From the NCBI GenBank assembly GCA_017555805.1, contig JAFZFR010000040.1, positions 1 to 52,189 on the forward strand: 52,189 bases of DNA, read 5' to 3'. Shown one piece after another: positions 23,148 through 37,360 of this stretch. Numbering within the stretch: the first letter of the stretch is position 1; each line of letters starts with the position of its first letter. The translations under genes were made by a program, and so were the position numbers. The stretch comes from Alistipes sp. (GTDB taxonomy: Bacteria; Bacteroidota; Bacteroidia; Bacteroidales; Rikenellaceae). The notes under the pieces were generated by a model that did not search any database, was not told the origin of the DNA, and was given only the letters and a program-made list of their open reading frames with translations.

Positions 23148-23177
23148 CAAATATACAAAAATTTTTATCCAATCAAA
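23148..23177 (-). promoter_or_regulatory. Candidate yccF-like gene promoter
   Basis: The minus strand has TTTG (23174-23177, inside the 3' end of ilvA), an 18-bp spacer and TATATTTG (23148-23155), 28 nt before the ATG. The spacer is one base short of the usual 19-20. Confidence 0.5.
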
Positions 23178-24427
23178 AACTCAAACAGACTTGGGTTCTC
23201 GTTCAGATACTGATAGTCGATGTTGTGCTCGACCATTCGCTGCGTCAAGCCACTGAAATCGTCGGGGTTCTGCAACTCGATACCAATCAGTACGGGACCC
23301 TTGTCGCGGTTGGTCTTTTTGTTGTACTCGAAGTAGGTGATGTCGTCGTGCGGACCCAAAACATTGGTCACAAAGTCCTGCAACGCACCCGCGCGCTGTG
23401 GGAAGCGCACCACGAAGTAGTGCTTCAGACCCTCGTAGAGCAGCGAGCGCTCCTTGATATCCTCCATTCGCACGATGTCGTTGTTGCTGCCGCTGATGAC
23501 GCACACCACATTCTTACCCTTAATCTGCTCGGCGTAGTAGTCCAATGCGCTGATACTCAACGCGCCAGCAGGCTCTACGACGATAGCGTCGAAGTTGTAG
23601 AGGTTAAGGATTGTCGAGCAGACCTTGCCCTCGGGCACTACGATGATGTCATCGAGCACCTGACGGCAGATGTCGAAGGTGATGTCACCCACGCGCTGTA
23701 CCGCCGCACCATCCACGAACTTGTCAATCTCTGGGAGGGATGTCACCTCGCCTCGCTCGATTGAGAGTTTCATACTCGCCGCGCCCGCAGGCTCAACACC
23801 GATAATCTTGGTGTGTGGCGACATCTGTTTATATACCGCACCGATACCCGACGCCAGACCTCCGCCACCGATAGGCACGAAGATGTAGTCGATAGGGGTG
23901 CTGCTCTGCTGCAAAATCTCAAGACCGACGGTCGCCTGACCCTCGATAATCTTTGGGTCGTTGAATGGCGGGATGAAGGTTTTGCCCTCCTGCTCGCACG
24001 CACGCTCCGCCGCGGCATTCGCCTGGTCGAAGGTGTCGCCCGAGAGGACAACCTCAATCTGACTGCCGCCAAACATCTTCACCTGGTTAATCTTCTGCTT
24101 TGGGGTCGTTACAGGCATAAATATCTTACCCATAATGCCCAACTTATTGCACGAGAGTGCCACGCCCTGTGCGTGGTTGCCCGCGCTGGCGCAGACGATA
24201 CCTCGCTCGCGCTGCTCGGCGGTGAGGCTACGAATCTTGTTGTATGCGCCGCGTATCTTGTACGAGCGCACCATCTGCAAGTCCTCACGCTTGAGCGAGA
24301 TGTTGGCATCGAACTTCTGCGAGAGGGTGCGATTGTGAAGCATCGGCGTAGGCTCAAGTATCTCCTTGAGTGTGTGCTCCGCCGTCATCACATCGTTCAG
24401 TGCAGGGAAATATCTCTTTTCGCTCAT
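23165..24427 (-). CDS. ilvA: Threonine ammonia-lyase (threonine deaminase), biosynthetic
   Basis: IlvA converts threonine to 2-oxobutanoate, the first step to isoleucine. The 420-residue enzyme has the PLP lysine at Lys57 (RSYKIRGA), SAGNHAQGVA, a glycine-rich phosphate-binding loop (PIGGGGLASG) and a single C-terminal ACT-like regulatory domain (about 335-420, YFVVRFPQRAGALQDF). One such domain, against two in E. coli IlvA, is usual for this shorter form and suggests feedback control by isoleucine. It is the last gene of the ilv-leu operon, 11 nt after leuB, which supports a biosynthetic rather than a catabolic role. Confidence 0.95.
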   Translation of the reverse strand: MSEKRYFPALNDVMTAEHTLKEILEPTPMLHNRTLSQKFDANISLKREDLQMVRSYKIRGAYNKIRSLTAEQRERGIVCASAGNHAQGVALSCNKLGIMGKIFMPVTTPKQKINQVKMFGGSQIEVVLSGDTFDQANAAAERACEQEGKTFIPPFNDPKIIEGQATVGLEILQQSSTPIDYIFVPIGGGGLASGIGAVYKQMSPHTKIIGVEPAGAASMKLSIERGEVTSLPEIDKFVDGAAVQRVGDITFDICRQVLDDIIVVPEGKVCSTILNLYNFDAIVVEPAGALSISALDYYAEQIKGKNVVCVISGSNNDIVRMEDIKERSLLYEGLKHYFVVRFPQRAGALQDFVTNVLGPHDDITYFEYNKKTNRDKGPVLIGIELQNPDDFSGLTQRMVEHNIDYQYLNENPSLFEFLIG

Positions 24428-24438
24428 AGCCCGTCGTG

Positions 24439-25506
24439 TTAGATGTTAGATGCAATGAAGTCGCCCACCTCGCTTGTCGAGCGTGGTGTCACGCCCTCGG
24501 GTGCGATGTCCTCGGTCACGAAGTTCTGCTCGATAGAGAGGTCCACTGCGCGACGAATGGCCGCGCCCGCCTCCATATCGGCAAAGGCGTATTCGAACAT
24601 CATCGCCGCCGAGAGAATCGTTGCGATAGGGTTGGCGATGTTCTTGCCCGCCGCCTGTGGGTATGAGCCGTGGATAGGCTCGAAGAGCGATGTGTATGTT
24701 CCAATCGAAGCCGATGGCAACAGACCGAGTGAGCCAGTGATTACGCTTGCCTCGTCGGTGAGGATGTCGCCAAACATATTCTCCGTTACGACCACATCGA
24801 AGTGGCGTGGCTGCTGGATAATCTTCATCGCAGCGTTGTCCACAAACATATACTCTACCTCCACATTTGGATAATCCTTCTCCATTGCCTTCGCTGTCTC
24901 TCTCCAGAGGCGTGATGTAGCAAGCACATTTGCCTTATCCACTACGGTGAGTTTGCCGCGACGCTTTGCCGCATACTCGAAGCCGAGTCGGCAGATGCGC
25001 TCAATCTCGGGGCGTGTATATACGCAGGTGTCGTAGGCAGTGTTGCCATCCTCCGAGCGCCCCTGTGGGCGTCCGAAGTAAAGACCGCCCGTAAGTTCGC
25101 GCACGCAGAGGAAGTCAGCGCCCTCCACCAGGTCATAGCGCAGTGGCGAGCGGTGCAGGAGCGAGGCGAATGTGTTCACGGGGCGCAGGTTGGCATACAG
25201 GCCCAACTTCTTACGCATAGCCAAAAGACCCTGCTCGGGGCGCACCTTTGCCTCGGGGTTGTTGTCGAAGCGAGGGTCGCCGATAGCGCCGAACAACACC
25301 GCGTCGGCAGCCATACACACCTCGTGCGTAGAGTCAGGGTAGGGGTTACCGCAGTCGTCGATGGCGGCAGCGCCCACCTTGGCGTGAGTGTAGTTTACCT
25401 TATAGTCGAATTTTGCAGCGACGGCATCCACCGCCTTCACAGCCTGTGCAACAATCTCTGGACCGATACCGTCGCCAGGCAGAACTGCAATATTAATCTC
25501 TTTCAT
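24439..25506 (-). CDS. leuB: 3-isopropylmalate dehydrogenase
   Basis: LeuB oxidises and decarboxylates 3-isopropylmalate with NAD+ to 2-oxoisocaproate precursor in leucine synthesis. The 355 residues show the family start ([17 protein letters not shown]), the substrate region [17 protein letters not shown] and [10 protein letters not shown], the catalytic stretch [16 protein letters not shown] with its metal-binding Asp residues, and the NAD site with [19 protein letters not shown]. Length is normal. It begins 3 nt after leuD, an arrangement typical of tightly coupled operon genes. Confidence 0.96.
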
Positions 25507-25509
25507 AGT

Positions 25510-26097
25510 TTATCTCTTTTGTTCAAACTGCTGAATCTCCTCGCGGATGCTCACCAGATAATCGACATCGTCGTAGCCGTTCATCAGGCACTGCTTCTTG
25601 TAGGGTGCAATCTCGAATGACTCCTTCTGCTCTGCGCCCACAATCTCGATAGTCTGCGCCTGAAGGTCAATCTTGAGTTCAGTTGCGGGGTTAGCCTCCA
25701 CCGCCGCGAAGATTGCTGCAAGCATCTGCTCGCTAACGGTCACTGGCAACAAGCCATTGTTCAGGGCGTTGTTGCGGAAAATGTCTGCGAAGAAACTCGA
25801 TACTACGGCGCGGAAGCCAGCGCCCTCAATCGCCCAGGCTGCGTGCTCACGGCTTGAACCACAACCGAAGTTCTTGCCCGCGATGAGAACCTCGCCCGTA
25901 TAGAGCGGTGAGTTCATCACAAACTCTGGCTTTGGGTTGCCCTCCTTGTCGTAACGCCAATCGCGGAAGAGGTTCTCGCCGAAGCCCTCGCGTGTGGTCG
26001 CCTTCAGGAAGCGTGCGGGGATAATCTGGTCGGTGTCGATGTTCTCGATGGGCAGAGGTACTGCCGTTGAGATGAGTGTAGTGAATTTATTTCTCAT
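25510..26097 (-). CDS. leuD: 3-isopropylmalate dehydratase, small subunit
   Basis: LeuD is the swivelling small subunit that, with LeuC, isomerises 2-isopropylmalate to 3-isopropylmalate. The 195-residue product has the family hallmarks [13 protein letters not shown] near the N-terminus and [14 protein letters not shown] (about 72-85), which takes part in substrate binding, followed by [19 protein letters not shown]. Length and sequence are normal. It follows leuC by 20 nt. Confidence 0.96.
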
Positions 26098-26117: not shown

Positions 26118-27512
26118 TTACATCAAATCTCGTGGGTCGGTAACAACGCCCGTCACAGCCGCTGCGGCAGCCACCAACGGACCAGCCAGCATTGTGCGTG
26201 CATCGGGACCCTGACGACCCTCGAAGTTACGGTTAGAGGTTGCCACGCAGTACTTGCCTGCTGGAATCTTATCCTCGTTCATAGCCAAACAAGCCGAGCA
26301 ACCGGGCTGGCGCAACTCAAAGCCCGCCTCGTTAAGAATCTCTTTCAAGCCCTCCTCGATAGCCAAGCGCTCCACCTCCTTGCTGCCTGGGACAATCCAG
26401 GCGGTGATGTTATCGGCCTTCTTCTTACCCTTTACGAAGTGTGCGAAGGCGCGCAAATCCTCGATGCGGCCGTTTGTGCAACTGCCCACAAAGACATAAT
26501 CTACCTTCTTGCCAATCATCTTCTCGCCCTCGCTGAAGCCCATATAGCCCAGTGCCTTGGCGTAAGATACCTTCGATGCCTCGTCCAAACCCTCCGAAGT
26601 AGGGATTGTGCCGCTGATGCCGATACCCATACCTGGGTTTGTGCCGTAGGTAATCATAGGCTCGATGTCTGCGGCATCGAAAGTGACCTCCTTGTCAAAT
26701 ACGGCGTCGTCGTCAGAGCGCAACTTGCTCCAGCGCTCCACAGCCTCGTCCCAGGCCTTGCCCTGTGGTGCGAACTCGCGACCCTTCAGGTAGTCGAATG
26801 TGGTCTGGTCGGGGGCAATCATACCGCCACGCGCACCCATCTCGATACTCATATTGCAGATGGTCATACGCGCCTCCATAGAAAGCGAGCGGATAGCCGA
26901 GCCTGCAAACTCAACGAAGTGACCTGTGCCACCGCCAGTGCCGAGTTTCGAGATGATGTAGAGGATAATATCCTTTGAGCAGACGCCCTCCTTTAGTTCG
27001 CCCTCGATGTTGATTCGCATACTCTTTGGCTTCGATTGAAGGATGCACTGCGATGCGAGAGCCATCTCAACCTCGCTTGTACCGATACCGAAGGCGATGC
27101 AACCCAGCGCTCCGTGAGTAGAGGTGTGGCTGTCACCGCAGACGATAGTCATACCAGGCTGCGTGAGTCCAGTCTGTGGACCGATGACATGGATAATGCC
27201 GTTGTGCGCCTCGCCGATAGGGAAGATGGTGATGCCAGTTTCGGCGCAGTTCTTCACCAGCGTGGCCACCTGCTCGGCCGACTGGGGCTCTGCGATAGGG
27301 AGGTGCTGGTTCTGCGTCGGGATGTTGTGGTCGGGGCTTGCCGTCACCTGCTGGGGGCGGAACACCTCGATACCACGACGGCGCAAGCCCGCAAATGCTT
27401 GCGGACTTGTCACCTCGTGAATGTATTGTCGGTCGATATAGAGCACACACGAACCACCGTCGATGGTCTTGACCGTGTGCGTATCCCATATCTTATCGAA
27501 AAGCGTATTCAT
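26118..27512 (-). CDS. leuC: 3-isopropylmalate dehydratase, large subunit
   Basis: LeuC is the catalytic aconitase-family subunit with a [4Fe-4S] cluster. The 464 residues include the cluster ligands in [12 protein letters not shown] (first Cys) and [13 protein letters not shown] (the Cys-x-x-Cys pair), [11 protein letters not shown] near 135, and [10 protein letters not shown] near the C-terminus. The length is that of the bacterial heterodimeric enzyme. It begins 2 nt after the leuA stop codon. Confidence 0.97.
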
Positions 27513-27514
27513 CG

Positions 27515-29011
27515 TTAGTTGATTTTTGATATTGCATCAATGAATGACTCTACCGAAGCGGTCACGATGTCGGTGTTAGCACCGAAGCCGTGATATATCT
27601 TGCCCTTGTGAGAGATTGACATATGCACCTTACCCAAGTCGTCGCTACCGCGCGTGATAGCCTGCACGAGGTACTCCTCGATGTGTACGCGGCGCTTGGT
27701 GATGTTCTTAACGGCGGTGATTGCCGCATCCACAGGACCATTACCGCAAGCCGTCTCGGTGAAGGTGTCGCCATCGAAACTAATCTGTACGGTTGCCGTA
27801 GGGATGCTCGACTTACCGCAGACAATCTGCAAGCCAGTGAGCTGTATGCTCATACGGCGGCGTGATGAAGCGGTGCCAATCAATACCTCAAGGTCGCGCG
27901 TTGTGACCATCTTCTTCTTGTCGGCGAGTTCAAGGAAACGCTGGTAGATGTCGTCCAACTCCTCATTCTCTGGGTTGTAGCCAATCTCGGCGAGGTGGTG
28001 CTTCAATGCTGCACGACCACTGCGGGCAGTGAGCACGATGCTTGACTGATCAACGCCAACCTCCTCTGGGTCGATAATCTCGTATGTCTCGCGGCTCTTC
28101 AAAACGCCATCCTGGTGGATGCCCGATGAGTGTGCAAAGGCGTTGCGACCAACGATAGCCTTGTTTGCCTGCACTGGCATACGCATCAAGTTAGATACGA
28201 GTTTGCTGGTTGTGATAATCTGCTTTGAGTCGATGCCAATCTCGAAGTCGAGGTTCTTGTGGCACTTGATAGCCATCACAACCTCCTCCAGAGCAGTGTT
28301 ACCCGCGCGCTCGCCCAAGCCGTTGATTGTCACCTCCACCTGACGCGCACCATTCTGCACCGCCGCCAGGGTGTTGGCTGTCGCCATACCGAGGTCATTG
28401 TGGCAGTGTGTTGAGATGATAGCCTTGTCGATGTTAGGCACATTGTTCTTCAGGTAGGCAATCTTTGCTCCGTACTCGCTTGGAAGGCAGTAGCCCGTAG
28501 TGTCTGGAATGTTCACAACGGTAGCACCCGCTGCGATGACAGCCTCTACCACGCGAGCCAGGAACTCCTCGTCAGTACGACCAGCATCCTCGGCGTAGAA
28601 CTCCACATCATCAACGAAGCGACGGGCATACTTCACTGCCTCCACCGCCTGCTCCATAACGGTCTCGGGAGTCATACGCAACTTCTCGTAGATGTGGTAT
28701 GTCGATGTGCCGATACCTGTGTGGATACGACCACGCTTTGCGAACTCCAAAGCCTGCGCCGCAACCTCAATATCCTTCTTTACGGCACGGGTGAGGGCGC
28801 AGATGGTAGGGTTGCTCACCGCCTTTGAGATCTCAACTACCGAGTTGAAATCGCCTGGGCTTGAGATTGGGAAACCCGCCTCGATGATGTCCACGCCCAA
28901 CTTCTCCAACTGACGCGCCACCTCAATCTTCTCGATGGTGTTGAGCTGGCAACCTGGCACCTGCTCGGCGTCGCGGAGAGTCGTGTCGAATATATATACT
29001 TTTTCGCTCAT
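27515..29011 (-). CDS. leuA: 2-isopropylmalate synthase
   Basis: LeuA condenses acetyl-CoA with 2-oxoisovalerate, the first committed step to leucine. The 498-residue protein has an N-terminal HMGL-type TIM barrel with the metal/substrate motif [13 protein letters not shown] (Ala where many homologues have Gly), [12 protein letters not shown] with metal-binding His residues, and [15 protein letters not shown]. The C-terminal third (about 395-498) is the regulatory LeuA dimer domain where leucine feedback normally acts. The length suits a feedback-controlled LeuA. It lies 15 nt after ilvC. Confidence 0.95.
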
Positions 29012-29026
29012 AAAATTCTTCGGTTA

Positions 29027-30073
29027 TTAGTTATTCTCTGGGCGGAGCTTACGAACTACCGCACCTGCCTGCCACATCTCAGTCTCGCGCATCTCCTTGA
29101 GTTCTGCCTCAAGCTTTGTGCGGTAGTCAGGCTGTGAGTTGGTGTCGATACTGCGCTGTGCCTCGTTACCGCAAGCAACCTCGCTGTAAAGCTCCTCGAA
29201 TACTGGCATAGTAGCATCGCGGAACTTCTTCCACCAGTCGAGTGCACCGCGCTGTGCAGTAGGAGAGTAGTTAGCGTACATCCAGTCCATACCGTTCTCG
29301 GCGATGAGTGGCATAAGACTCTGTGAAAGCTCCTCTACGGTCTCGTTGAACGCCTCCGATGGAGTGTGACCATTCTGGCGCAAAACCTCATACTGCGCTG
29401 CGAAGATACCCTGGATAGCACCCATCAAAGTACCGCGCTCACCTGTGAGGTCAGAATATACCTCGCGCTTGAATGTTGTCTCGAACAAGTAACCTGAACC
29501 AACACCGATACCGAGTGCGATTACGCGGTCCCAAGCCTTACCAGTTGCATCCTGGAAGATAGCGTAGCTTGAGTTCAAACCGCGACCCTGCAAGAACATA
29601 CGGCGAAGTGATGTACCCGAGCCCTTTGGAGCAACCAAGATAACATCAACATCTGCTGGAGGAACGATACCTGTGCGCTCCTTGTAGGTGATGCCGAAGC
29701 CGTGTGAGAAGTAGAGTGCCTTGCCTGGGGTGAGGTATGGCTTGATTGTAGGCCATACAGAAATCTGACCAGCGTCAGAGAGCAAGTACTCGATGATGGT
29801 TGCCTTCTGGCAGGCCTCCTCAATCTCGAACAATGTCTCGCCTGGTACCCAGCCGTCCTCTACTGCCTTGTCCCAGCTCTTTGAGCCCTTACGCTGACCA
29901 ACGATTACATTGAAACCGTTGTCACGCAAGTTGAGTGACTGACCAGGACCCTGCACACCATAACCGATAACTGCGATAGTCTCATCCTTCAATGTCTCCA
30001 AGGCCTTTGCCAATGGATATTCCTCTCGTGTTACGACATTCTCTTCAACGCCGCCAAAAATCATCTTTGCCAT
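29027..30073 (-). CDS. ilvC: Ketol-acid reductoisomerase (NADP+)
   Basis: IlvC isomerises and reduces acetolactate and acetohydroxybutyrate to the dihydroxy acids of valine and isoleucine synthesis. The 348-residue class I enzyme has a Rossmann motif GYGVQGPGQSLNLRDNG (the PGQ form typical of Bacteroidota), the cofactor loop GQRKGSKSW, whose Arg and Ser favour NADPH, FSHGFGI with the catalytic His, and SDLTGERGTLMG carrying metal-binding Asp and Glu. An A-rich 40-nt leader separates it from ilvN, giving it its own translation start region. Confidence 0.96.
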   Translation of the reverse strand: MAKMIFGGVEENVVTREEYPLAKALETLKDETIAVIGYGVQGPGQSLNLRDNGFNVIVGQRKGSKSWDKAVEDGWVPGETLFEIEEACQKATIIEYLLSDAGQISVWPTIKPYLTPGKALYFSHGFGITYKERTGIVPPADVDVILVAPKGSGTSLRRMFLQGRGLNSSYAIFQDATGKAWDRVIALGIGVGSGYLFETTFKREVYSDLTGERGTLMGAIQGIFAAQYEVLRQNGHTPSEAFNETVEELSQSLMPLIAENGMDWMYANYSPTAQRGALDWWKKFRDATMPVFEELYSEVACGNEAQRSIDTNSQPDYRTKLEAELKEMRETEMWQAGAVVRKLRPENN

Positions 30074-30113: not shown

Positions 30114-30653
30114 TTATTTTGTCTCGCTTAAAATGCGATCTCTCTTTTCGTTTACATATTTCAAATACTCGTCAAGCAACTCTCGGCGTGACTTGATGAT
30201 TGCCACCTGACCCGAACTTACGAACTGATAGATGCCGTAGGGGGCGAGTATCTGGTAGAGTTCATCCAACTCCGCCTTGTGACCTGTCTTCTCGAGGACG
30301 ATGTACTCGTCGTGAATTTCCAGGATGCGTACATTGTGGCGGCGTACCAACTCCTCCACATTGCGGCTGCGCTTAACCTTGTAGAGTGCCAACTGCTGCA
30401 TAACAACCTCGCTGGGCGAGTAGCAGAATACCTTAAGCACATCGACCTTCTTCTCTATCTGCTTCACAAGGTTTGCCACGCGCTCGGGGTCATTCTTCAC
30501 TGCGATGGTGTATTTGTGGATGCCCTCGATAGCCGATGGTGAAGCGGCGATTGACTCAATGTTTACATTACGATGGGTGAATACGGTTGTCACCTGACTC
30601 AAGATACCCACCTTGTTCTCCGAAAATATGGTAATGATAAATTCTCTCTCCAT
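30114..30653 (-). CDS. ilvN: Acetolactate synthase, small regulatory subunit
   Basis: This 179-residue subunit activates IlvB and makes it sensitive to valine. The N-terminal ACT domain (about 1-78) begins FIITIFSENKVGILSQVTTVFTHRNVNIESI, of which the segment NKVGILSQV carries the effector-contact glycine. A C-terminal small-subunit domain follows (about 90-170, with HNVRILEIHDEYIVLEKTG). The family is called ilvN or ilvH in different species. It lies 42 nt after ilvB. Confidence 0.95.
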   Translation of the reverse strand: MEREFIITIFSENKVGILSQVTTVFTHRNVNIESIAASPSAIEGIHKYTIAVKNDPERVANLVKQIEKKVDVLKVFCYSPSEVVMQQLALYKVKRSRNVEELVRRHNVRILEIHDEYIVLEKTGHKAELDELYQILAPYGIYQFVSSGQVAIIKSRRELLDEYLKYVNEKRDRILSETK

Positions 30654-30695: not shown

Positions 30696-32429
30696 TTACT
30701 CAAGTCTAATATCGTGTACTGGTGCGCCTGCTGGCACCATTGGGAATACATTTTCCTCCTTCTCTACGCGGCACTCCAGAAGGAACGCTCCTTCGGTAGA
30801 GTGCATTTCGCGGATGGCATCGTCCAAATCCTCGTGACGCTCCACACAGCGGTAGGCGATGCGGTTTGCCTTGGCGAGTAACTCAAAGTCGGGGTTTACA
30901 AGTTCGGTGAACGAGTAGCGCTTGTCGTAGAAGAGTTCCTGCCACTGGCGTACCATACCGAGGTAGCCGTTGTTCATCAGGATAATCTTCACGCCCACCT
31001 GCGACTGGTAGATTGTGCCCAACTCCTGCGATGTCATCTGCAAGCCGCCGTCACCCACAAACAAACATACATCTCGCTCTGGCGCTCCAATCTTTGCGCC
31101 GATGGCTGCTGGCAGGCCGAAGCCCATTGTACCCAGGCCGCCCGATGTGATGATGCTACGGCTGCGCTTGAACTTAAAGTACTTCGAGGCGAACATCTGC
31201 TGCTGACCTACATCCGTCACGAGTATTGCATCGTCAAACTCCTTCGATACGGCATCCACCACCTCGCCCATACGCAGATGCGCTCCGCGGCGCTCGATGG
31301 CTGGGTCGATGATGTCCTCGCGCTCGATGTTGGCACATACTCTGAACTCGTCAATCCACTCCGAGTGGTCGTTTTGCGAGATGCGCTCGGTAATCATTGG
31401 CAACGACTCCTTGATATTGCCCAGCACTGGAACATCGGCATAAACAATCTTGTTAATCTCCGCAGGGTCAATCTCCAGATGGATAATCTTGGCGTTGATA
31501 CCGAACTTCGATGGGTCGCCCGTCACTCTATCGTCGAAACGCATACCGATTGCAATCAGCAGGTCGCAGTCGCGGTTCTTGATGTTTGGACCATAGTTGC
31601 CGTGCATACCCAGCATACCTACATACTGCGGATGGTCGCTTGGCAGGGCCGACAGACCCAAGAGGGTAGAGGCTGCGGGGATACCGCTCTTCTCCAAAAA
31701 CTCCTTCAACTCCTGCTCGGCGTTGGCGAGGATTACACCCTGACCAACCAGCGCCATAGGCTTGCGTGAGAGGTTAATCAGACGCACCGCCTCCAAAATC
31801 TGGTCGCTACAGATGTCGGCGTAGGGCTGATAACTGCGGATAAACTTGATTGGGTTATAATCGAAGTTGGTCAAGCCATTCTGTGCATCCTTCGTGATAT
31901 CGACCACCACAGGACCTGGGCGGCCGCTTGATGCGATGTAGAAGGCGCGTGCGATAGCCGCTGGGATATCCTCGGCGCGCTTCACCTGACAGTTCCACTT
32001 TGTAACGGACTGCGTAATCTCGATGAAGTTAATCTCCTGAAAGGCGTCTGTGCCGAGTTGGCTTGATGCCACCTGACCACTGATAAGCACGATAGGGGTT
32101 GAGTCGAGCAGTGCATCCGCCAGACCCGTTACGGTGTTCGTAGCACCTGGACCCGAGGTCACGATGCAGACGCCCGTCTTGCCCGTTACACGCGCATAAC
32201 CCTGCGCTGCGTGGATGGCACACTGCTCGTGACGCACCAGGATGTGGTTGAGTCGGTCGCGGTAGTCATAGAGCGCATTATATACGGGGATGATAGCACC
32301 GCCTGGGTAGCCGAAAATTGTCTCCACGCCCTCTGCGATGAATGAGCGGATGACAGCCTCCGAGCCCGTGATGCGGGGCAACTCCTTGGCGGGTTGAGCC
32401 GCCGTTATATCTGAAAAACCTGAATTCAT
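30696..32429 (-). CDS. ilvB: Acetolactate synthase, large catalytic subunit
   Basis: IlvB joins pyruvate to pyruvate or 2-oxobutanoate, the shared first step to valine, leucine and isoleucine, using thiamine diphosphate, Mg2+ and FAD. The 577 residues contain the N-terminal pyrimidine-binding domain with the catalytic Glu68 (RHEQCAIHAAQGYA), a central FAD-binding domain, and the C-terminal diphosphate domain with GDGGLQMTSQELGTI followed by the NNGYLGMVRQW loop. Length and motifs are standard for the biosynthetic enzyme. It follows ilvD by 19 nt. Confidence 0.96.
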   Translation of the reverse strand: MNSGFSDITAAQPAKELPRITGSEAVIRSFIAEGVETIFGYPGGAIIPVYNALYDYRDRLNHILVRHEQCAIHAAQGYARVTGKTGVCIVTSGPGATNTVTGLADALLDSTPIVLISGQVASSQLGTDAFQEINFIEITQSVTKWNCQVKRAEDIPAAIARAFYIASSGRPGPVVVDITKDAQNGLTNFDYNPIKFIRSYQPYADICSDQILEAVRLINLSRKPMALVGQGVILANAEQELKEFLEKSGIPAASTLLGLSALPSDHPQYVGMLGMHGNYGPNIKNRDCDLLIAIGMRFDDRVTGDPSKFGINAKIIHLEIDPAEINKIVYADVPVLGNIKESLPMITERISQNDHSEWIDEFRVCANIEREDIIDPAIERRGAHLRMGEVVDAVSKEFDDAILVTDVGQQQMFASKYFKFKRSRSIITSGGLGTMGFGLPAAIGAKIGAPERDVCLFVGDGGLQMTSQELGTIYQSQVGVKIILMNNGYLGMVRQWQELFYDKRYSFTELVNPDFELLAKANRIAYRCVERHEDLDDAIREMHSTEGAFLLECRVEKEENVFPMVPAGAPVHDIRLE

Positions 32430-32448: not shown

Positions 32449-34269
32449 TTACTCTTCTGGAACGATTCTCACTGCGCCCTGGTCGGCTGAACTCACCAGC
32501 AGCGAGTAGGCACGCAACGATTGTGGAATCTGTCGGTCGCGGTTTGCTGGCTTGTGGATTGTCCACGCCGCCATTCTCTCTGCCAACTCCTCGCCAGTGA
32601 TGCGGAGGTTGATTGAGCGTGCCGCGATGTCGATGTCGATGATGTCACCGCTCTGGATGATACCAATCTCACCGCCCGAAGCGGCCTCTGGTGAGATGTG
32701 ACCGATTGACAGGCCTGATGTTCCGCCCGAGAAGCGACCGTCGGTAATCAGCGCACACGCCTTGTCCAGATGCTTCGACTTGAGGTAAGAGGTAGGGTAG
32801 AGCATCTCCTGCATACCTGGACCTCCCTTTGGCCCTTCGTAGCGGATGACCACCACATCGCCAGCCTCGACCTCGCCGCCCAGGATGCCGTTCATAGCCT
32901 GCTCCTGCGACTCAAAGACCTTCGCCTTGCCCGAGAACTGCATCAGGGAGTTATCTACGCCAGCGGTCTTTACGATACAACCCTTGCGGGCGATATTACC
33001 AGTCAGCACCGCCAGACCGCCATCGCGGAAGTAGCAATGCTCCATATCGCGGATGCAACCCTCGGCGTGGTCAGTGTCCATCTGCTCGTAGAAGCACTCC
33101 TGTGAACCCATCTCGCGGCTGTAGCGATTTGCTGGTGCGCTGCAATATATCTTGCGAGCCTCATCCGAGAAGTTCTCCGAGCCGAAGTAGTACTCGTCGA
33201 TTACCTCTGCCAACGATGGTGCATCCACGCGCTTTGCCGAGGTGTCAATCAAACCATTCTTCGCAAGTTCGCCGAGGATGCCCATAATGCCACCCGCGCG
33301 GTTCACATCCTGAATGTGGTAGTGACCATTTGGCGCAACCTTGCAGAGCACTGGAATCTTGCGTGAGAGGCGGTCGATGTCCGCCATTGTGAAGTCCACA
33401 CCCGCCTCGTGAGCCACAGCCAGGAGGTGGAGGACTGTATTTGTCGAGCCACCCATCGCGATGTCGAGCGACATAGCATTCTCGAAGGCAGCCTTCGTTG
33501 CGATTGAGCGTGGAAGAACCGACTCATCACCCTCGAAGTAGTAACGCTTGGCGTTCTCGACGATAAGTTTCGCCGCCTTCGCAAAGAGAGCCTTGCGATT
33601 GGTGTGAGTTGCAACGATTGTTCCGTTGCCAGGCAATGCCAAGCCGATAGCCTCGTTTAGGCAGTTCATTGAGTTCGCAGTGAACATACCCGAGCACGAG
33701 CCGCAACCTGGGCAGGCGCACGCCTCAATCTCGTCGGCGTCAGCGTCGGTGCAGTTCTCGTCGGCACTCATCACCATCGCATCAATCAGGTCGGCACCTC
33801 GTCCGCGGAAGTTACCCGCCTCCATAGGTCCGCCCGAAACGAAGATGGTTGGGATGTTCAGGCGCATCGACGCCATCAACATACCTGGAGTAATCTTGTC
33901 GCAGTTGCTGATGCATACCAGCGCATCCACCTTGTGGGCGTTTGCCATATACTCGACGCTGTCGGCGATGATGTCGCGCGAAGGCAACGAGTAGAGCATA
34001 CCATCGTGACCCATTGCGATACCGTCATCGATGGCGATGGTGTTGAACTCTGCGGCGAAGCAACCCTGCTCCTCGATTAATGACTTTACATATTGACCTA
34101 TCTTGTGGAGGTGAACATGACCTGGCACCATCTGTGTGAAGGAGTTTGCGATGCCGATAACGGGCATTCCCATCTGCTCCTTCTTCATTCCGTTAGCCCT
34201 CCAGAGGGCTCTTGCTCCCGCCATGCGACGACCGATAGTCGTGATGGCACTTCTTAACTGGTGTTTCAT
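32449..34269 (-). CDS. ilvD: Dihydroxy-acid dehydratase
   Basis: IlvD dehydrates the dihydroxy acids to the 2-oxo acids that give valine and isoleucine. The 606-residue enzyme shows Fe-S ligands Cys123 ([10 protein letters not shown]) and the Cys cluster in [19 protein letters not shown] near 192. The early position that is Cys in [2Fe-2S] homologues is not Cys here (ANSFTQM), suggesting the oxygen-sensitive [4Fe-4S] type seen in E. coli; this is an inference fitting an anaerobe. It is the first structural gene of the nine-gene operon, and its start codon lies just 13 nt behind the attenuator hairpin. Confidence 0.96.
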
Positions 34270-34282
34270 AATTTTTAATGTT

Positions 34283-34316
34283 AAAAGCCCTTCTCCATAT
34301 CGGAAGAAAGGCTCTT
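34283..34316 (-). terminator. Attenuator terminator (3:4 hairpin) of the ilv-leu operon
   Basis: On the minus strand, AAGAGCCTTTCTTC (34316-34303) pairs with GGAGAAGGGCTTTT (34296-34283) in a 14-bp stem with three G-U pairs and a 6-nt loop. The U-run is short (four) and is followed by AACATTAAAAATT. It sits before the first structural gene rather than after a gene, as expected for an attenuator. Confidence 0.8.
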
Positions 34317-34354
34317 AATAATATCGTCAAATATATACATACAACCTTTCTCCC
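34302..34354 (-). promoter_or_regulatory. Antiterminator (2:3 hairpin) of the ilv-leu leader
   Basis: GGGAGAAAGG (34354-34345), starting 1 nt after the leader stop codon, can pair along its full length with CCTTTCTTCC (34311-34302), with one G-U pair. The second segment is most of the 5' arm of the terminator, so the two hairpins exclude each other. Confidence 0.75.
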
Positions 34355-34386
34355 GTTATCTGCGCAAGACCACGAGGTTTAGGTTG
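34342..34386 (-). promoter_or_regulatory. Pause/protector (1:2 hairpin) of the ilv-leu leader
   Basis: CAACCT (34386-34381, within codons 10-11 of the leader peptide) pairs with AGGTTG (34347-34342), and CTC (34376-34374) with GAG (34352-34350). It uses the same bases as the antiterminator. A ribosome stalled on the Ile/Leu/Val codons would block it and free segment 2. Confidence 0.6.
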
Positions 34387-34412
34387 ATGATAATTGACAA
34401 ATTGCTTAACAT
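34356..34412 (-). CDS. Leader peptide of the ilv-leu operon (attenuation sensor)
   Basis: An 18-codon reading frame encodes MLSNLSIIINLNLVVLRR and stops with TAA. Ten of 18 residues are Leu (5), Ile (3) or Val (2), the three end products of the operon downstream, including Ile-Ile-Ile and Leu-Val-Val-Leu runs. It is the functional counterpart of ilvL in enteric bacteria, though homology need not exist. It begins about 60 nt after the likely transcription start, has no clear Shine-Dalgarno, and ends 1 nt before the antiterminator segment. The peptide itself probably has no function beyond being translated. Confidence 0.85.
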   Translation of the reverse strand: MLSNLSIIINLNLVVLRR

Positions 34413-34470: not shown

Positions 34471-34480
34471 ATTGTTAGTG

Positions 34481-34511
34481 CAAATGTAATAGTAAAAATT
34501 ATTAAAAACAA
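34481..34511 (-). promoter_or_regulatory. ilv-leu operon promoter
   Basis: On the minus strand, TTG (34511-34509), 20-bp spacer, TACATTTG (34488-34481), an exact TAnnTTTG. It predicts a leader of about 205 nt before the ilvD ATG. From here to about 34812 on the plus strand I see no gene; only a weak GCGA-GCC-TCGC hairpin with a T-run near 34690-34710. Confidence 0.78.
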
Positions 34512-34864: not shown

Positions 34865-35440
34865 ATGATTTACAACGAAAGAGATATCCGTAATCAGACG
34901 GTAAAGAGATTGGCAGAGGCTGTGATGGCGGCTGCCCGCACAGCACCCAAGGCGAAGGGTCGTGATTTGGTGGAGGTGGCGATGATCACCGACGAAGATA
35001 TTGAGCGTCTGTCGCAGACAATGCTCCAGATGAGCGCCGAGTCAGGTATGAAGTTCCTGTTGCGCGACGCAGCCAATGTGTTGGAGGCGGAGGCTGTGTT
35101 GGTGGTAGGTATCCAGTGTGAGAACTCGGAGTGTGGTCTTAACTGCGGCTACTGCGGCTACAAGGCTTGTCTTGAGAAACCAGCCTGCACACCTTGTGTG
35201 ATGAATGGTGTCGATGTGGGTATCGCTATCGGTGCTGCCTGCTCGAAGATTGCCGACTTCCGTCTCGACTCGCGCGTGATGTTCTCGGCAGGATGGGCGG
35301 CAAAGCGTATGGATGTGCTGAATGGTGCTGACCTTGTATTCGCTATCCCATTGAGTTCTGCATCGAAAAACCCATTCTTCGACCGTAAGTCTCCACGCAA
35401 GGAGCAGCCACAGCCAGCGGCAGAGCCAGCAAAGCAGTAA
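34865..35440 (+). CDS. DUF2148 ferredoxin-like domain protein
   Basis: The 191-residue protein carries a cysteine-rich centre, CENSECGLNCGYCGYKAC followed by CTPC (about 84-118), the mark of DUF2148 proteins, which are thought to bind an Fe-S cluster. The N-terminal half is helical and the end is a Pro/Ala-rich tail. No enzymatic role is established for the family. It is the first gene of an apparent operon with luxS, the Pfs-like nucleosidase and a ZIP transporter, 23 nt before luxS. A link to sulfur or methyl-cycle chemistry is possible but unproven. Confidence 0.85.
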   Translation: MIYNERDIRNQTVKRLAEAVMAAARTAPKAKGRDLVEVAMITDEDIERLSQTMLQMSAESGMKFLLRDAANVLEAEAVLVVGIQCENSECGLNCGYCGYKACLEKPACTPCVMNGVDVGIAIGAACSKIADFRLDSRVMFSAGWAAKRMDVLNGADLVFAIPLSSASKNPFFDRKSPRKEQPQPAAEPAKQ

Positions 35441-35463
35441 TTAATAAATATAATATAGAATAT

Positions 35464-35982
35464 ATGGAGAGCAAAAAATCAGTAGTCTCATCATTTGATG
35501 TTGATCATATCACCCTGAAGGCGGGTCTTTACTTGCGTTCGGTATATACCATTAACGACGAGTTTGCAGTTCATTCGTGGGATATGCGTTTCCGCGCACC
35601 TATGGACCACGCTCCACTCGGTGCCGAGGAGGTGCACACCATCGAGCACCTGATGGCATACTATCTGCGCCTTGACCCAGTTATCGGTCACAGCATCGTG
35701 TCGTTCTGCCCAATGGGTTGTAAGACAGGCTTTTACCTCTCGACAATGAACGACATCACAGCCGAGCAGATTCGCGAGGCGTTGGCACGCGTCTATAAGC
35801 AGGTGTTCCCGCTCAAGTCAAAGGATGATATCGTAGGCTTGAACGAGGTGCAGTGCGGTAACCCAGGTCTTTACGCCATTGCGACAACAAACTTCGCTAT
35901 GGCGCAGTATATGCGTGCGCTCTATACTCCCGAGGAGGCTAAGGGGGCAGGTATTGAGTCAATCTATAATTGCGTTTGGTAA
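35464..35982 (+). CDS. luxS: S-ribosylhomocysteine lyase
   Basis: LuxS cleaves S-ribosylhomocysteine to homocysteine and DPD, the precursor of autoinducer 2. The 172-residue product has the metal motif His58-x-x-Glu61-His62 (HTIEHL), the catalytic Cys86 in FCPMGCKTGFY and the third metal-ligand Cys in EVQCGNPG. Length is normal. Its TAA stop overlaps the ATG of the next gene (TAATG), so the nucleosidase that makes its substrate is translationally coupled. This is a compact activated methyl cycle unit. Confidence 0.97.
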   Translation: MESKKSVVSSFDVDHITLKAGLYLRSVYTINDEFAVHSWDMRFRAPMDHAPLGAEEVHTIEHLMAYYLRLDPVIGHSIVSFCPMGCKTGFYLSTMNDITAEQIREALARVYKQVFPLKSKDDIVGLNEVQCGNPGLYAIATTNFAMAQYMRALYTPEEAKGAGIESIYNCVW

Positions 35983-36569
35983 TGAAGTACTTAATCATTG
36001 CTCCTACCGAGAGAGAGTATCGCAACATCACTCGCGCTCTTGAGAAGAGAACCACCGAGAACCAGTATCTTGTGACCCGTTGTGGCGTGGGTAAGGCTTT
36101 GGCGGCGGCAAATACGGCGCTTGCCATTGCGCAGCTCAACGGCGAACTCAACCGCGTGGCTGTTATCGGCTATGCCGCTTCGACTCTGGGTCGCAAGCGT
36201 GGTGAGTTGGTAGCCCCTCGTGTGGCTCGCTACCACGATTGCCGCATCCCTGGCGACTTCGTTCCCGAACTCACAGACCCACACCCTCTGCTTGGTCACG
36301 ATGATGCGGTGGTGTGGACTGGCGATTCGTTTGTTGATGGCGAGATTATTGCCGATGTTAAGGCAAAGTATGGCTTGAAGTCGGGTCTTTTCGATATGGA
36401 GGCTACGGCGGTGTGTCAGGCGGCGGAGTTGTTCGACCTGCCCGTGGTGGTTATCAAGATGGTGTCGGATGTTCCCGAGGAGGGCGACAACGAGCACTCT
36501 TACGATGAGTTCGTGGACTCTCACTCCGACTTTAACCCATTCATTGATTACCTTGAGGCGTTGAAATAG
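35982..36569 (+). CDS. 5'-methylthioadenosine/S-adenosylhomocysteine nucleosidase-like protein (Pfs family)
   Basis: Members cleave adenine from S-adenosylhomocysteine and methylthioadenosine. The 195-residue product starts at the ATG overlapping the luxS stop (the frame is open 12 nt further, inside luxS). It has the nucleoside-phosphorylase fold with GVGKALAAANTALAI, FDMEATAVCQAA for ribose binding and KMVSDVPEEGDNE, whose Asp is the catalytic acid. It is shorter than E. coli MtnN (about 232) and only moderately similar, so mtnN is likely but not certain. Position after luxS strongly supports SAH cleavage. Confidence 0.85.
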   Translation: MKYLIIAPTEREYRNITRALEKRTTENQYLVTRCGVGKALAAANTALAIAQLNGELNRVAVIGYAASTLGRKRGELVAPRVARYHDCRIPGDFVPELTDPHPLLGHDDAVVWTGDSFVDGEIIADVKAKYGLKSGLFDMEATAVCQAAELFDLPVVVIKMVSDVPEEGDNEHSYDEFVDSHSDFNPFIDYLEALK

Positions 36570-36577
36570 TTTGCGCG

Positions 36578-37360
36578 ATGACTCCTGAAATTGCATACGG
36601 TCTGCTGCTCCCGTTCCTTGGAACGACATTGGGTGCGTCGATGGTCTTTCTGCTGCGCGGCGAGATGTCGTCGTGGTTGCAGAAACTCCTGCTCGGCTTC
36701 GCGTCGGGCGTGATGATTGCTGCCTCGGTGTGGTCGCTGCTCATCCCCTCGATTAATATGTCGGCGGAGTTGGGTATGGTCGAGTGGTTGCCTGCGGTGG
36801 TGGGCTTTCTGGGCGGTATGTTCTCGCTGCTTATCTTCGATAGCGTCGTTCCGCATCAGCACCTTGACTCCGATGAGCCAGAGGGTATGAAGTCGGGGCT
36901 TGGCAGGTCGGCGATGCTGGTTATGGCGGTCACGCTGCACAACATACCCGAGGGTATGGCTGTGGGCGTAGTGCTGGCGGGCGCGTTGAGCGAGAGCGCG
37001 GGCATAACATTGGCGGGTGCGCTTGCCCTGTCGGTGGGTATCGCTATCCAGAATTTTCCCGAGGGCGCGATTGTCTCAATGCCACTCAAGCAGAGCCTCA
37101 AGAGTCGCTGGAAGGCGTTTGCCTATGGTGCTGGCTCGGGTATCGTGGAGCCCATAGCGGGACTTTTGACCATATTGATGATTGATGTGATGCAACCCAT
37201 CTTGCCCTATCTCTTGGCATTTGCCGCGGGCGCAATGGTCTATGTGGTTGTCGAGGAGTTGATTCCCGAATCGCAGAGCGGTCATCACTCGAATATAGCG
37301 ACAATAGGAGTTGCACTCGGTTTTGCCCTTATGATGGTTTTGGACATCGCATTAGGATAG
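36578..37360 (+). CDS. ZIP-family divalent metal transporter
   Basis: ZIP proteins import Zn2+, Fe2+ or other metals through the inner membrane. The 260-residue product has about eight helices and the two conserved metal-site motifs HNIPEGMAVG (helix 4) and IQNFPEGAIVSMPL (helix 5), where E. coli ZupT has His in place of the Gln-Asn pair in part. A short acidic/His loop (HQHLDSDEPEG) links helices 3 and 4. It starts 8 nt after the nucleosidase stop. LuxS needs a divalent metal, so the grouping may be functional, but that is inference. Confidence 0.9.
   Translation: MTPEIAYGLLLPFLGTTLGASMVFLLRGEMSSWLQKLLLGFASGVMIAASVWSLLIPSINMSAELGMVEWLPAVVGFLGGMFSLLIFDSVVPHQHLDSDEPEGMKSGLGRSAMLVMAVTLHNIPEGMAVGVVLAGALSESAGITLAGALALSVGIAIQNFPEGAIVSMPLKQSLKSRWKAFAYGAGSGIVEPIAGLLTILMIDVMQPILPYLLAFAAGAMVYVVVEELIPESQSGHHSNIATIGVALGFALMMVLDIALG

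Follow-up and report, generated by a model that had tools for sequence, protein, structure and literature searches.

The attenuators of the enteric ilvGMEDA, ilvBN and leu operons (E. coli, Salmonella) are built from a leader peptide rich in the end products, with its stop codon at strand 2, and from an antiterminator and a terminator that exclude each other. The Corynebacterium ilvBNC attenuator has a leader frame or hairpins ahead of its ilv genes (PMC11857589, PMC10272879). For the ilv-leu attenuator of Staphylococcus aureus, PMC5794164 reports a leucine-rich attenuator peptide for branched-chain amino acid synthesis, naming leucine for the peptide and CodY for isoleucine. Predicted cis-regulation of amino-acid operons has also been noted in Bacteroidota. 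The Bacteroid-trp motif RF01692 is listed in PMC2864571, and PMC9723704 reports hints of attenuation by leader peptides ahead of amino-acid operons in Flavobacterium (F. psychrophilum), in a passage that names no ilv details. Leader-peptide-like frames are mentioned for B. thetaiotaomicron in a passage of PMC7366714. A sequence-only reading of the DNA analysed here had called such leaders little characterised in the phylum; this is a fair description, but the passages on Flavobacterium and the Bacteroid-trp motif qualify it.

In this study, we analysed a DNA stretch of 52,189 nucleotides, hereafter the window, from an Alistipes genome of the order Bacteroidales (incomplete assembly, 2.0 Mb, 114 contigs, 83% complete). 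The region upstream of ilvD shows the design of the enteric attenuators, whereas it shows no sequence relation to them by Rfam, places one leader at the head of a combined ilv-leu cluster, uses the Leu-Val-Val codons just before the stop as strand 1 and carries a predicted Bacteroidota promoter. The Corynebacterium attenuator belongs to another phylum and to an operon of other content, the S. aureus attenuator belongs to the Firmicutes, and Bacteroid-trp gives no match to the window. Comparison of sequences and a folding model together make it very probable that a ribosome-mediated transcription attenuator controls the ilv-leu operon. The mechanism is classical; the element matches no Rfam family and is common among relatives. 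Among the titles and abstract openings listed in literature searches, none dealt with this ilvD element; the survey of Lopatovskaya et al. 2010, reportedly a comparative study of attenuation, could contain it.

Such operons are known in general to be T-box-controlled in Firmicutes, and the leader RNA could on that ground be a T-box or a ligand-binding riboswitch in which the frame is incidental. This is extremely improbable, since Rfam 15 gave no match in the window at the gathering threshold for leader, T-box or riboswitch families, and the permissive matches scored far below their thresholds. Rfam 15 also gave no match at the leaders of 20 ilvD and hisG loci, where the only hits were two tRNAs and one FopS sRNA.

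Table 1. Positions of the predicted regulatory features and of the ilv-leu genes in the window.
Feature	Position	Strand	Description
Bacteroidota-type promoter (predicted)	34481..34511	-	TAnnTTTG at 34488-34481, TTG about 20 nt upstream
Leader peptide frame and stop	34356..34412	-	ATG 34412-34410, 18 codons, TAA 34358-34356; product MLSNLSIIINLNLVVLRR
Outer extension of hairpin 1:2	34342..34386	-	CAACCT (34386-34381) with AGGTTG (34347-34342)
Hairpin 1:2	34352..34376	-	CTCGT.GTCT (34376-34367) with AGAT.ACGGG (34361-34352); overlaps the Leu13-Val14-Val15 codons and the start of strand 2
Antiterminator 2:3	34302..34354	-	GGGAGAAAGG (34354-34345) with CCTTTCTTCC (34311-34302); 10 bp, one G-U
Intrinsic terminator 3:4	34283..34316	-	AAGAGCCTTTCTTC (34316-34303) with GGAGAAGGGCTTTT (34296-34283); 14-16 bp, then a short U run
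ilvD, dihydroxy-acid dehydratase	32449..34269	-	NF009103, TIGR00110 above cut-off
ilvB, acetolactate synthase large subunit	30696..32429	-	TIGR00118 above cut-off
ilvN/ilvH, acetolactate synthase small subunit	30114..30653	-	TIGR00119 above cut-off
ilvC, ketol-acid reductoisomerase	29027..30073	-	TIGR00465 above cut-off
leuA, 2-isopropylmalate synthase	27515..29011	-	TIGR00973 above cut-off
leuC, isopropylmalate dehydratase large subunit	26118..27512	-	TIGR00170 above cut-off
leuD, isopropylmalate dehydratase small subunit	25510..26097	-	TIGR00171 above cut-off
leuB, 3-isopropylmalate dehydrogenase	24439..25506	-	TIGR00169 above cut-off
ilvA, threonine ammonia-lyase	23165..24427	-	TIGR02079 above cut-off

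As shown in Table 1, the leader frame, the 10-bp antiterminator and the 14-bp terminator that the sequence-only reading had described are all present on the minus strand, and Leu, Ile or Val account for 10 of the 18 leader codons. The terminator stem reaches 16 bp in the minimum-energy fold (14 bp as first drawn) and is followed by a short U run (CTTTTAAC). The third pairing of that reading, CAACCT with AGGTTG, exists as well, but it is only the outer extension of hairpin 1:2. This main early hairpin, in which the Leu13-Val14-Val15 codons and the next base are paired, had been missed. The leader stop codon abuts strand 2, which in turn can pair with the 5' arm of the terminator. None of 200 dinucleotide shuffles folded as well as the 206-nt leader of the window (z -3.6), the best structure of which holds the 16-bp form of the terminator and a hairpin within the leader.

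The genes downstream of the leader make the amino acids that it would sense. NCBIfam models named all nine of them in the order ilvD to ilvA, as had been proposed, and the intergenic gaps are 19, 42, 40, 15, 2, 20, 3 and 11 bases in that order. The nine genes likely form a single transcript. The further proposal that the leader serves the entire combined pathway fits the nine genes of the window, but this extent is not general, as other Alistipes species showed only ilvD-B-N-C in six loci of 11 kb and one of 11.8 kb (L130-L133, L135, L136 and L132's group).

Of 180 genomes of the genus, 45 (among them the window's) have ilvD at E<=1e-100, which suggests that branched-chain amino-acid synthesis is often lost within the genus. 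At the same threshold, 18 of 70 high-quality genomes of the genus had ilvD. The 45 loci were combined with one sister-genus locus (L008, closely related IlvD, 87% identity). Relatives without the leader or the hairpins had been named as evidence against an attenuator; the opposite was found, with a Leu/Ile/Val-rich leader and then a terminator upstream of ilvD in all 46 loci. Every one of these leaders contains Leu, Ile and Val, which together make up a mean fraction of 0.52. The bare leader criterion is weak, being met in 17-19% of shuffled upstream regions, so it is the combination of leader and terminator that carries the weight; the combination occurred in none of 920 dinucleotide shuffles of the 46 upstream regions. 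The position of the leader stop was parsed in 44 loci: it falls 4 bases or 1 base short of strand 2 or, in 10 loci, 13 bases inside it. In those 10 loci, a single extra base beyond the Leu-Val codons displaces the leader end. A test of the frame by distance modulo 3 can have only one outcome by construction and was given no weight.

These data bear on whether the leader is a chance open frame placed before a constitutive terminator or processing site. AT-rich DNA has many Ile and Leu codons, and the frequency of such frames in shuffled regions would favour chance, but a chance frame would account neither for conservation of all three residues in the whole set nor for stops at the same places relative to strand 2 (-4, -1 or +13). 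The nearest upstream gene in the window, at 34865, encodes a DUF2148 protein and runs divergently from ilvD, so the 3:4 hairpin is not the terminator of a same-strand upstream gene. Together with the choice of leader residues, which follows the operon as described below, this makes a chance frame very unlikely. The divergent neighbours at 34865-37360 (+) encode the DUF2148 ferredoxin-domain protein, LuxS and a ZIP-family transporter.

Bacteroidota promoters follow a consensus other than that of sigma-70. A scan with the sigma-70 consensus found no promoter on the relevant strand of the window and is uninformative for this reason. The box TAnnTTTG, the Bacteroidota promoter consensus, lies ahead of the leader in 46 of 46 loci; when these upstream stretches were shuffled by mononucleotide, 470 of 4600 shuffles had such a box. 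Because of the box at 34488-34481, a transcription start near 34475 is plausible in the window.

We then examined the pairings in a MAFFT alignment of 45 sequences, in which L113 also stands for L114 (the two look identical over the stretch compared). Pair counts were taken from the alignment columns, and the shuffle tests take no account of relatedness. The shared arm CCTTTCT is invariant. Its partners, the antiterminator 5' arm and the terminator 3' arm, vary almost only from A to G and keep the pairing with U, so that both structures survive. In the terminator, 98.1% of cells are paired, compared with 96.1% in shuffles, and the covariation score is 0.234 against 0.192, with none of 500 shuffles as high. 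Two-sided change was seen at one of 11 terminator pairs, from G-C to A-U in 17 sequences, which may reflect few events. An anchor-based count had given two-sided change at 5 of 13 terminator pairs. It located CTCGT, GGGAG and CCTTTCT and picked the terminator 3' arm for best pairing, which leans towards pairing, and this figure was set aside in favour of the single pair from the MAFFT columns. The antiterminator has 94.4% of cells paired, falling to 54-70% when slid by 1-3 columns, with no two-sided change in the 45 genus-level sequences. Hairpin 1:2 has 96.0% of cells paired, with eight of its nine pairs kept in 43-45 of the 45 sequences and the innermost in 32, and showed no covariation beyond shuffles in this set. 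Its outer extension is partly kept, at 16 to 43 of 45 sequences per pair by the anchor-based count. Covariation of the three hairpins, the check proposed beforehand, was therefore obtained for the terminator, at one pair, but not within the genus for the antiterminator or hairpin 1:2.

The position of the 3:4 hairpin bears on two other readings. In translational attenuation, the hairpin would hide the ilvD start region and a stalled ribosome would open it. In the window, 14 nt separate the end of the hairpin arm from the ilvD ATG, and this distance is 14-29 nt in 24 of 45 sequences; the short U run of the window would also suit this reading. However, the hairpin ends at least 45 nt before the gene in the other 21 sequences, at least five T occur in the 9 nt after the 3' arm in 41 of 45, and the start codon lies outside the hairpin arms as drawn. 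We regard translational attenuation as unlikely, and transcription attenuation as the better account of the hairpin. Re-initiation was proposed for leader genes close to the structural gene in PMC4833913, with a distance peak of 11-14 bp in Bacteroidetes, and a short frame does precede ilvD here. A leader that mainly boosts ilvD translation in this way is nevertheless highly doubtful, as 86 nt lie between its stop and ilvD in the window and at least 84 nt in relatives, except for the forms with the stop 14 nt further in; these distances are outside the 11-14 bp range, and a terminator stands between.

Conservation of the predicted transcription attenuator was examined beyond the genus. Among 148 Bacteroidales genomes, 64 (one of them the window's) have ilvD. 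The order set held 64 loci from 63 other genomes, of which 60 were usable (L213, L215, L218 and L231 were excluded for lack of a recognised gene start). A leader was present in 49 of the 60 loci and a leader with terminator in 44, compared with 2 of 1200 shuffles; 16 loci failed the combined criterion. With 200 shuffles per locus, the strand at the leader stop was complementary to the terminator 5' arm in 32 of the 44 loci at p<=0.05 and in 23 at p<=0.01, leaving 12 that failed at p<=0.05. At least one of these failures, L178, carries strand 2 within a longer frame, beyond the stretch that was tested. The three-strand design is retained across the order while the sequences differ widely, and the antiterminator is kept in quite different sequence, for example AATCGGTATGT with ACATGCCGATT. 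This complementarity of strand 2 in divergent sequence is the strongest evidence for the predicted antiterminator.

Other lineages of the same family gave a different result. They supplied 55 ilvD loci in addition to the genus set. We read 53 of them (G032 and G105, at contig edges, were left out), and only 2 had a leader with terminator. Leader loss or operon replacement is possible in these lineages. L018 and L067 have leader-like peptides below the combined criterion. The leader-like frame of L067, from another genus of the family, ends in VVAIAAIIIAIIIIQT and is followed by a long GC-rich hairpin and a T run before ilvD; this locus went unscored because the hairpin loop is larger than the limit of the scan. 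In L021-L070, from these lineages and mostly without leader, ilvB is 49-57% identical to that of the window where it was found. In the phylum outside the order (L139-L167), 59 other genomes had a match and 29 of these were read. Leu/Ile/Val-rich frames precede ilvD in 13 of 29 loci, with a terminator as well in 7. Strand 2 complementarity was found in none of these 7, and we make no claim for those classes.

A search that made no use of the gene was performed with strands 2 and 3 as an exact sequence pattern, which matched 38 stretches among 84,980 species genomes. A Leu/Ile/Val-rich frame precedes the motif in all 38 matches (in L104 it was read from TTG, as the contig stretch starts too late), and 31 of them are followed by ilvD on the same strand after 35-127 bases. 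The seven matches without ilvD behind the element are L078, L085, L089, L100, L101, L104 and L108. Since six of these seven loci have an ilvB match, the operon may retain the leader when ilvD is lost or relocated; ilvB directly adjoining the element was read for L078 only.

We also investigated another amino-acid operon of the order. A hisG match was found in 36 of 60 genomes, and the best 30 of 37 places were read. A His-rich leader precedes hisG in 25 of these 30 best loci (L232-L261), and it is followed by a terminator in 24; at least one locus, L255, has a short left flank, was read at the wrong offset and counts as a miss. In the window's own genome, MTLTLNIHHYHYILRKIG and a terminator precede hisG (L254). 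The ilvD loci had a Leu/Ile/Val leader with terminator in 44 of 60 and a His leader with terminator in 1 of 60, while the hisG loci had a His leader with terminator in 24 of 30 and a Leu/Ile/Val leader with terminator in 5 of 30. On these counts, the predicted choice of leader residue follows the operon. Because His-rich leaders are so frequent before hisG, attenuation looks general in the order. We think it probable that leader-peptide attenuation is a default control of Bacteroidales amino-acid operons, with Leu/Ile/Val leaders for ilvD and His leaders for hisG, each unmatched in Rfam and with its own rapidly changing triplet of strands 2, 3 and 4.

The effect of ribosome position was modelled by folding 45 sequences with strand 3 transcribed and strand 4 not, assuming an E. 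coli-like footprint that reaches to +13 relative to the A site. Averaged over the sequences, P(2:3) stayed at 0.98-0.99 while the A site lay between the sixth codon ahead of the conserved Leu CTC and the third codon beyond it, which in the window means codons 7-16. It then decreased to 0.87 at codon 17, 0.39 at codon 18 and 0.05 at the stop. The shape of this response stayed for footprints of +10 to +16 in the 15 of 45 sequences that were run. The model thus predicts antitermination with the ribosome at codons 7-16 and termination with the ribosome at the stop. With no ribosome, P(2:3) was 0.03 in the window and 0.46 on average over the genus, which is a mixed default. The modelled antiterminating stretch takes in 8 of the 10 Leu/Ile/Val codons of the window (Leu2 and Leu5 are outside the model), so a shortage of any one of the three amino acids should suffice to induce. 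The earlier proposal of one leader for all three amino acids agrees with this predicted response and with the composition of the leaders in the 46 loci.

Based on these findings, RNA polymerase would start at the TAnnTTTG promoter, followed by a ribosome that translates the 18-codon leader. With ample charged Leu-, Ile- and Val-tRNA, this ribosome would reach the stop codon and cover strand 2, the 3:4 hairpin would form, and transcription would end before ilvD. When any one of the charged tRNAs is short, the ribosome would halt upstream and mask strand 1, leaving strand 2 free to form 2:3 before strand 4 is made, and polymerase would read into the operon. In the window species, the absence of a ribosome would let hairpin 1:2 and its outer extension tie up strand 2, giving default termination.

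The element looks common in a major order of gut bacteria and, if it works as we infer, ties amino-acid supply to expression of the pathway. Bacteroidota initiate translation mostly without Shine-Dalgarno pairing. If attenuation is the default across Bacteroidales, it would imply close coupling of translation and transcription in the phylum, and an element working in this way would offer a genetic test of whether ribosomes closely trail RNA polymerase in Bacteroidota.
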